A DNA stretch of 59,589 nucleotides from Candidatus Scalindua sp. (lineage in GTDB: Bacteria; Planctomycetota; Brocadiia; Brocadiales; Scalinduaceae), in NCBI GenBank assembly GCA_021776915.1, contig JAIQZU010000004.1:1-59589 (forward strand), read 5' to 3'. Shown here piece by piece: positions 55,732-57,973 of the stretch (its first letter is position 1; every line of letters starts with the position of its first letter). A program made the position numbers and the translations under genes. The notes beneath the pieces are model-generated. The model made no database searches, was not told the origin of the DNA, and saw nothing but the letters and a program-made list of their open reading frames with translations.

Positions 55732-57309
55732 TTAGTGTAAATTCGTGAAATTAGTGTTTATTAATCCATAAATCAAATCCATTCTTATGTGCTTTCTAAA
55801 CAGATCTGCAAGTTTATCATATTGTCTTTCTTTGTCTAGCTTACTCATATCCTCGGGTTGAATGGGTGAAAGGCCTTTTTTTCTTCTGAGACAATTGATG
55901 AGTTCCAACCTGAATTCATCGTTGTCAAAAATACCGTGTACGTACGTGCCGATCACGTTTCCATCATCAGAGATTGCCCCGTCGTCCACGCACACTTCCT
56001 TATCAGATCTCTCTATGATTCTCAAAAATGGCAATGTTCCGTTAAGTCGCTCTGTTTCTCCCATATGAATTTCATAACCGGTTATGTCACATTTTGTGTT
56101 GAAATATTTTTCTGTCAGATCAGCCCGGCTGAGCGGACTTTCAGACATCCTTGCCTTGACCTGATAGGTATTCTTTTGCAGCATAAAAACAGTTTCAGCA
56201 TCAATAAGACCCAGGCCCTTTATTTGAGTAATCTTAGATTCTGCATTTTCCGAATCCCTGATTTCTTTACCAAGCATCTGATACCCACCACAAATCCCGA
56301 TAACCATAGTCCCATTCTTTGCAAGATTATTAATCGTATCTGCAATACTATTGTCTTTGATAAACTTCAAGTCTCCTATGGTATTTTTGGAACCCGGTAT
56401 AATAATCAAATCCGGTTTACCAATGGATTGCGCATTATCCACAAACCTTACGCAGATATCTTTTTCTCTCTTAAATATATCAAAGTCAGTAAAATTGGAG
56501 ATCCTGGGTAATCTTATGACTACAATATCAATTTGATCCTCAGATGGTTTACCGCTTGTAGACTGTAACTCATAATTGCTGTTTTCAAGACACACCGAAT
56601 CTTCATTATCTATATTTATATCTGTGAAATATGGAAGAACACCTAAAACAGGTTTACCTATCCTCTCTTCCAGCATTTCAATTCCCGGTTCCAGTATTCC
56701 CATATCACCTCGGAATTTGTTTATGATTATACCGCAGATCCGTTCTCTTTCATCACTGTTTAAAAGCTCCAGTGTGCCAACTATCCATGCAAAGGAACCT
56801 CCCCTTTCTATGTCTGTTACAAGTATTACGGGGGCATCGGCTATTTCGGCGATCTTCATATTAACAATATCATTATCCTTGATATTAATCTCTGCCGGAC
56901 TCCCGGCGCCTTCAATAACGATAATGTCATATTGTTCGCTCAATGCGGAATATGCATCCTTCGCAATGTCAAGCATCTTGTCCTTATTTCCATAATACTC
57001 ATTAGCCGTCATATGTCCAATCGGCTTTCCCATCGTTATAATCTGCGACCCATTATTGCCGGTAGGTTTCAGAAGAATCGGGTTCATCTCTGCCGCAGGT
57101 CGCAATCCTGCTGCTTCAGCCTGAGCCACCTGCGCCCTGCCCATCTCCCTGCCGTCAATGGTCACATAAGAGTTATTGGACATATTCTGCGCTTTAAACG
57201 GAGCAACCTTCAGGCCTTCCTGTCGGAAAATACGGCATAAGGCACACACCAGAATGCTCTTGCCGACATCTGAACCAGTCCCCTGTACCATTATGGCTCT
57301 TGCCTTCAA
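55732..57309 (-). CDS. cbiP: Cobyric acid synthase
   Basis: Makes the four amidations at b, d, e and g of adenosylcobyrinate a,c-diamide. 525 residues: MVQGTGSDVGKSILVCALCR ATPase site, FKAQNMSNNSYVT, VIEGAGSPAEIN, then the amidotransferase half with nucleophile Cys in MVIGICGGYQMLG and the final GTYVHGIFDNDEF. First gene of the minus-strand cobalamin run. No B12 riboswitch was recognised upstream; that space holds repeat copy C. Confidence 0.95.
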   Translation of the reverse strand: MKARAIMVQGTGSDVGKSILVCALCRIFRQEGLKVAPFKAQNMSNNSYVTIDGREMGRAQVAQAEAAGLRPAAEMNPILLKPTGNNGSQIITMGKPIGHMTANEYYGNKDKMLDIAKDAYSALSEQYDIIVIEGAGSPAEINIKDNDIVNMKIAEIADAPVILVTDIERGGSFAWIVGTLELLNSDERERICGIIINKFRGDMGILEPGIEMLEERIGKPVLGVLPYFTDINIDNEDSVCLENSNYELQSTSGKPSEDQIDIVVIRLPRISNFTDFDIFKREKDICVRFVDNAQSIGKPDLIIIPGSKNTIGDLKFIKDNSIADTINNLAKNGTMVIGICGGYQMLGKEIRDSENAESKITQIKGLGLIDAETVFMLQKNTYQVKARMSESPLSRADLTEKYFNTKCDITGYEIHMGETERLNGTLPFLRIIERSDKEVCVDDGAISDDGNVIGTYVHGIFDNDEFRLELINCLRRKKGLSPIQPEDMSKLDKERQYDKLADLFRKHIRMDLIYGLINTNFTNLH

Positions 57310-57370
57310 ATTGAGACTCCTTTAGAAAACACGAAATAATTTAACACCATACGGTTGATTGTATTAACTT

Positions 57371-57512
57371 AATTTCAAACTCGAAATACGAAGTCCGAAA
57401 TACGAGACAATTTTCAAAATTAAGATTTCAAATGACCAAAACCCTGTTTAGAGTTTCTATCATTAGACAATTAGAATTTGTTTCGAATTTCGACATTTGA
57501 CATTCGGATTTA
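57371..57512. repeat. Long dispersed AT-rich palindrome, copy C
   Basis: Arms with CTCGAAATACGAAGTCCG and AATTTGTTTCGAATTTCG; imperfect palindrome of about 140 bases. Related to copies near 19551 and 54497. It lies upstream of cbiP. Ends are approximate. Confidence 0.65.
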
Positions 57513-57579
57513 CTCCTACTGCTCGAAATTTCTTGCTACTCAAATAACGGCAGTTATTAAATGTATTATAATATCAAAA

Positions 57580-57973
57580 ATGAATCGTAAAGAGAAAGAG
57601 AAAACTCGCTCTAGACCGGGAATCAAGTATGCTTTTTTTATCTCATATGACCTTGCGGTTGTCAGCTATATCGCTGACAGAGTGGAAGCAATGTCATTGA
57701 ATTAAGGTAAATAATATGGAGTGCATCATCCGTGATGATGCGTATTAAAGCAGTAACACGGTTACTGCACTCCAAAAAAAGGAGATTTATCTTTAAATGT
57801 GAAAATCAAATCGCTTAATTCAATGACATTGCAGAGTGGAAGTGATGGACATGGGTAGGATTGCCGAGCTAAAATCAGTAACCTACATCTATTCAAGAGC
57901 CGAGCATCCTCACACTCAGCAACTCTCTGGCGCTATTCCAAGACCTGATCATTCATTTGAGTTTACTGATTAA
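57580..57973 (+). pseudogene. Oligopeptide-type ABC transporter ATPase, C-terminal remnant split by a MITE
   Basis: The first part encodes FFISYDLAVVSYIADRV, the switch (H-loop) region of Opp/Dpp-type ATPases, then hits the MITE. Removing the MITE and one 11-bp target copy joins it in frame to EVMDMGRIAELKSVTYIYSR, ending AEHPHTQQLSGAIPRPDH and a stop at 57973: the standard tail (HP-x-TQ-x-L-x-x-AIPRPD). The switch His is Tyr (SYDL for SHDL), and everything before the H-loop is gone, so the gene was probably already dead when the element inserted. Confidence 0.87.
57689..57831. mobile_element. 143-bp MITE with 18-bp perfect ends and 11-bp target duplication
   Basis: Ends CAATGTCATTGAATTAAG and CTTAATTCAATGACATTG are exact inverted repeats. 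The element is flanked directly on both sides by CAGAGTGGAAG (57678-57688 and 57832-57842). No reading frame inside; instead there is a three-stem structure (57718-57773) followed by an A-run. The ends and 11-base duplication resemble the IS231 group of the IS4 family as I recall it (10-12 bp duplications, ends starting CA and closing TTAAG), so a mobile-cassette derivative is likely. No transposase is in the window. Confidence 0.9.

Follow-up and report, generated by a model that had tools for sequence, protein, structure and literature searches.

Anatomy of the element and its locus

The window (the whole stretch of DNA analyzed, 59,589 nt) is contig C24 of a Candidatus Scalindua sp. genome (G000; 3.79 Mb, 95% complete, 89 contigs). 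It contains a cobyric acid synthase gene (cobQ) and, beside it, the tail of an Opp/Dpp-type ATPase gene that is divided by an element of 143 bp (Table 1). We use the term shell A for the outer module of this element, the end pair of an IS4-subgroup insertion sequence (IS) with 18-bp CAATGTCATTGAATTAAG ends, and the term core for its interior. The intergenic DNA between cobQ and the ATPase relic, outside the element, is AT-rich at positions 57366-57530 and carries internal repeats (GAAATACGAAGTCCGAAATACGAG ... TTCGAATTTCGACATTTGACATTCGG).

Table 1 Features of the cobQ-ATPase relic locus (window positions).
Feature	Position	Strand	Basis or remark
Cobyric acid synthase gene (cobQ)	55732..57309	-	gene by which the loci in G002 and G003 are recognized as orthologous
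Opp/Dpp-type ATPase tail relic, 5' part before the insertion	57598..57688	+	
Left 11-bp target-site duplication CAGAGTGGAAG	57678..57688	.	sequence
Whole MITE, 143 bp: IS4-type shell and REP-doublet core, non-coding	57689..57831	.	
Left terminal inverted repeat CAATGTCATTGAATTAAG	57689..57706	+	
Core module AATATGGAGTGC...GCACTCCAAAAAA	57714..57779	+	stretch common to ~20 other places in the genome, mostly without shell A
REP-like unit 1: GGAG tag and hairpin GCATCATC-CGT-GATGATGC	57718..57741	+	
REP-like unit 2, inverted: hairpin GCAGTAAC-ACG-GTTACTGC, then CTCC (GGAG on the other strand)	57750..57773	-	
Right spacer of the shell	57780..57813	.	kept among the shell-A copies of congeners
Right terminal inverted repeat CAATGTCATTGAATTAAG	57814..57831	-	
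Right 11-bp target-site duplication CAGAGTGGAAG	57832..57842	.	sequence
ATPase tail relic, 3' part to its stop codon	57843..57973	+	

The terminal inverted repeats match at 18 of 18 positions, or 19 of 19 with the adjoining G/C pair from the duplication included, and the two copies of the 11-bp target duplication are identical. Within the window the end pattern occurs only at the two ends of the element (0.22 matches expected with up to three mismatches); the whole source genome yielded 10 matches at this threshold versus 0 for a reversed control. The element possesses no open reading frame of its own, and its strand folds with a z value of -8.9. By its size (within 70-300 bp), its terminal inverted repeats, and its lack of coding capacity, it is confirmed as a real MITE, ordinary as such, with the boundaries, ends, and direct repeats that had been assigned to it in a sequence-only reading of this DNA. 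An Rfam search with the element returned just AbsR25 below threshold (E = 0.49), an identity that we rejected as a chance match.

The target site

When the flanks were joined across one repeat, an open frame (...ADRVEVMDMGRIAE...) extended to the TAA stop codon, in agreement with the earlier claim that deletion of the element and one repeat restores a reading frame. The rejoined frame was 58% identical over 71 residues to an intact, fused 538-residue Opp/Dpp-type ATPase of G008 (its residues 464-533), and a similar intact gene is present in G009. A Pfam search with the 79-residue rejoined relic gave no match, despite its clear resemblance to the intact ATPase in a pairwise comparison. The recovered frame represents merely the C-terminal ~65-70 residues of a much longer gene, and no ATPase body lies upstream of it in the window. 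Beside the same cobQ gene, the congener G002 has the same tail and the same upstream junction with no insert; at the G003 locus the upstream junction is there and the tail is absent. The empty target in G002 (CAGGGTGGTCG) matches the duplication at 8 of 11 positions, in a site that is only 73% identical overall. We looked for an intact orthologue in the own genome and found none, the other ABC ATPases reaching no more than 37% identity with the fused protein in long alignments. Given this negative search and the truncated, insert-free tail of G002, the ATPase gene was already a relic of ~65 residues when the element landed in it. The search for an unoccupied site in relatives, which the sequence-only reading had recommended, thereby succeeded in G002, and that same site contradicts its claim that the insertion broke an otherwise intact ABC-ATPase gene.

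Shell A and its IS4-family relatives

Insertion sequences of the IS4 subgroup have ends of the form -AATR--------WTW----, produce target duplications of 10-13 bp, measure 1.4-1.65 kb, and carry a single open reading frame with a YREK motif (De Palmenaer et al. 2008, PMC2266710), whereas the IS231 subgroup has CAT------- ends (PMC2266710). The CAATGTCATTGAATTAAG end fits the IS4-subgroup consensus at positions 2-5 and 14-16 and does not match the IS231 ends (CAT-------AA--TAA---), since its third base is A rather than T. Relatives contain three complete insertion sequences, 1483-1494 bp long, whose ends are identical or nearly identical to CAATGTCATTGAATTAAG. The copy in a genome of the same genus (G003:C97, 1488 bp) matches at 18 of 18 positions at both ends, encodes a transposase that passes the IS4_1 model NF033592 and has YHLRWGIEEEYKTIK, and is without an exact target duplication. 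The copy in G043 (C238, 1483 bp) lies between two identical 11-bp copies of a palindromic target (CCTTCGCAAGG), and the third is located in G034 (C2, 1494 bp). The NCBIfam IS4 model NF033592 scored above its cut-off for the G003 and G034 transposases, the two that were run, and the YREK motif (Y-2-R-3-E-6-K) of the DDE transposase is present in all three sequences. With the 11-bp duplications of the window element and the G043 sequence also inside the range of the IS4 subgroup, end sequence, length of the duplication, and YREK motif all point to that subgroup of the IS4 family rather than to IS231. The window element differs from members of the subgroup in lacking a transposase and in having a core that does not derive from the IS.

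The end pattern is widespread: at one mismatch it was present in 42 of the 59 genomes searched in the order, and matches to the control were almost nil. Full-length or near-full relatives of the window element were found in five genomes of the same genus (G004, G006, G008, G009, and G010), and other shell-A elements are bordered by duplications of 10-12 bp that are exact or have one mismatch (CCTGCTAATAG, CCCATCAAGGG, GGTCTGTTAGG, CCTATCGTAT). Full or partial IS copies (L110, L112, L124, L115, and L117) lie in palindromic targets (CCTTCGCAAGG, GGTTTGCAACC, GTCTGCCGACAG), which suggests target choice for palindromes.

Among the seven PF01609 genes of the own genome, none was similar to the IS4 transposase or had these ends within 1.5 kb, a result that leaves room for copies near contig ends. 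Because no matching transposase was found there, the window copy is probably now stranded, or its partner lies in the unassembled part of the genome. The sequence-only reading had suggested mobilization by an IS231/IS4-type transposase and a search for further copies of the ends and for a transposase with matching ends. The IS4 half of that assignment held and the IS231 half did not; further copies turned up in the five congeners, and transposases with matching ends turned up in G003, G043, and G034 and not in the own genome.

The REP-doublet core

The middle ~66 bp of the element are made up of two inverted, GGAG-tagged hairpins with perfect 8-bp stems and GGAG at both outer edges. A BLAST search of the element against its own genome located ~20 further places, nearly all of which stop on both sides at the core limits given in Table 1, and most of these copies are without shell A; some have extra hairpins inside their loops. 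The interior is a separately dispersed repeat that forms a chimera with the IS4-type shell, a point absent from the sequence-only reading.

An inverted doublet of tagged hairpins is the layout of a REPIN (PMC3116915). The canonical GTAG (GT(A/G)G) tag is absent from the window core, which has GGAG instead, and because of this tag we describe the core as REPIN/BIME-like and not as a REPIN. The system resembles REPIN/BIME repeats with their RAYTs (PMC3116915, PMC2817692, PMC3733652) in having an inverted tagged-hairpin doublet that is dispersed through the genome, along with a RAYT (NF047646) in the same genome. It differs in its GGAG tag, its few copies, its lack of a core-flanked RAYT, and the location of the doublet inside a DDE-type MITE. 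A core copy lies ~1.2 kb from the NF047646 RAYT gene (C70:19339), with another gene in between, and does not flank it; for nine of the ten Y1 transposase genes in the own genome, no copy of the core was present within 1.5 kb. Because the C70 RAYT is not flanked by the core, the link between the two is weak, and the evidence that a RAYT-type tyrosine transposase originally spread the core is circumstantial.

Y1-type genes (IS200-like/RAYT) in the genome include those at C7:3757 and C7:12054 and on C29, C73, C18, C64, and C72. Three core copies of the own genome (C70:10874, C8:15446, and C70:3145; L153, L154, and L157) have similar coding-like upstream flanks (AAAGAATTTGCTCATAGATG...), as though they had been copied together with the start of a gene or had entered members of a gene family at the same position.

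A second shell and a recombinant element

Several core copies are bounded by ends (GGGAGCATTCCCAAATTGTTGTA) that are unrelated to shell A and that we call shell B; among these copies are those at C14:41257-41393 and on C21 in the own genome, and many in G014 and G005. Read by eye, the duplications around shell B are 9 bp in the clear cases (CTTTCAACC, CAATGAATA, GTCGCCCTT). Across species, the core within shell A (L026) and that within shell B (L048) are identical at up to 56 of 57 positions. Shell B also encloses a different core (GTGGATTCAC...) in many copies in G009. We did not find a partner transposase for shell B among the PF01609 or Y1 loci of the own genome.

In one element of G009 (L098), the core is bordered by shell B on the left and by shell A on the right. 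Only one such hybrid was seen; its left end aligned to shell B with a score of 43, compared with a maximum of 31 in 2000 shuffles.

G014 belongs to another genus of the family; its shell-B ends pair at 138 bp in ~10 places (on C1, C2, C10, C12, C15, C23, C50, C52, C117, and C129), and those that were read hold the GGAG core. G009 (Brocadiaceae bacterium S225) has ~28 genomic matches to the shell-B ends, and a second repeated core (GTGGATTCACTTCGTTTAATCCACCC ... GGATTAAGGCCGGAGGCCGAATCCAC) lies inside shell B there (e.g., L169, L183, and L189); at each of three sites that were read, the flanking duplication measured 8-9 bp and had no mismatch.

Other cores within shell A

A scan of the genome collection, together with the relatives, provided 69 distinct end-bounded shell-A elements whose interiors were clustered. 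The interiors comprise seven unrelated families with at least four members each. In Planctomycetota and Lentisphaerota, shell A is thus combined with no fewer than seven cores that fold strongly and are unrelated to each other. The mean folding z of the interiors was -4.05, versus -0.47 for random segments, and 71% versus 3% fell below -3. Because the elements are related, the nominal p-value exaggerates their independence; the fair unit is the family, all seven of which hold strongly folded members. Two of the families are GTAG-tagged REP doublets. Core E (GTAGCGGAAACC...) is distributed in Scalindua and other Planctomycetota, with two decayed copies in the own genome (C66 and C13), and core G (GTAGGGACGGC...) is found in a Lentisphaerae genome. 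Lone REPs of cores E and G were also observed without any trace of a shell.

Discussion

We interpret the MITE as a composite of two independently dispersed modules, an IS4-subgroup shell moved in trans and a REPIN-like host core, and we assign this reading a probability of roughly 0.8. A trans-acting IS4-family DDE transposase would recognize CAATGTCATTGAATTAAG and insert the unit with a duplication of 10-12 bp (11 bp here); the IS4 transposase is thus the presumed mover. Cores would enter or switch shells by recombination at the hairpin core, a process that explains the hybrid L098, the one recombinant seen, and a RAYT-type tyrosine transposase may have been responsible for the original spread of the core. 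Judging from the anatomy of the element, the composite would have moved as a unit in its own lineage.

A serious alternative concerns the origin of the composite rather than its later movement. An IS that targets palindromes could have laid IS4 ends around host palindromes, with paired insertions and internal loss giving rise to end-core-end units. Palindromic or near-palindromic targets are indeed found for the full IS and for some MITEs (CCTTCGCAAGG, GGTTTGCAACC, CCCATCAAGGG), and the major cores are strongly folded. The window's own target, however, is not clearly palindromic, and no intermediate with two IS copies around a REP was seen. In addition, the shell spacers are fixed and common to units across loci and species, and the duplications flank the whole unit; because of these two features, the units are likely to have moved as wholes after their formation. 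On balance we regard an origin by such capture as unlikely, while still deserving of serious consideration.

Somewhat less probable is a MITE of one lineage, in which core and shell have never been separate and the cores without a shell are remnants left by truncation. A reading of this type has been published for QMITE2 of Coxiella burnetii, a 150-190 bp MITE with terminal repeats, duplications of 7-11 nt, and a GTAG REP inside, the shorter copies of which are REPs alone that were interpreted as truncated MITEs (PMC5896051). Some cores of the own genome do retain part of a shell (the left end of shell A on C9, and one shell-B end each on C29, C33, C86, and C83). Evidence against a single lineage is that two shells, whose ends are unrelated and whose duplications differ in length, enclose the same core, that seven unrelated cores share one shell, and that the lone REPs of cores E and G described above show no trace of a shell. 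QMITE2 resembles the window element as a small MITE that encloses a REP, with lone REPs elsewhere (PMC5896051); it differs in its host phylum, and the truncation model does not account for two features of the present system, the sharing of one core by two shells and the variety of cores within one shell.

The model implicit in the sequence-only reading, a plain IS4-derived MITE that disrupts a functional ABC-ATPase gene, agrees with the rejoined frame and the similarity of the tail to an intact ATPase, and is very improbable given the missing ATPase body, the insert-free relic with the same breakpoint in G002, the lack of an intact orthologue in the own genome, and the separately dispersed interior.

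The most economical reading is a MITE mobilized by an IS4-subgroup transposase, in which REP-like doublets serve as interchangeable cores. Mobile insertion cassettes such as MIC231, associated with IS231, are non-autonomous, have IS4-family ends and replaceable interiors, and are termed modular. They carry genes and have IS231-type ends, whereas in the window element the cargo is a REP doublet and the ends are those of the IS4 subgroup. In the literature searched, we found no MITE in Scalindua or anammox bacteria and no REP-cored MITE besides Coxiella QMITE2. The MITE in itself is nothing new; the exchange of shells and cores is a new variant, for which QMITE2 is the nearest precedent.

A broader proposal, which we offer tentatively and consider doubtful at present, is that REP doublets are portable cores swapped between the shells of different DDE transposases, that RAYT (HUH) and IS4 (DDE) enzymes jointly maintain a hybrid family across Planctomycetota and Lentisphaerota, and that the hairpin core is selected and not a mere passenger. 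As a rule, REP doublets are set apart from MITEs as a distinct kind of small bacterial repeat, mobilized by different enzymes. The elements described here offer a testable system in bacteria for which the literature searched holds nothing comparable. That two shells share one core, and that one shell accommodates many cores, points to a way in which REPs may spread without a transposase of their own and to a source of REP-like 'remnants'.
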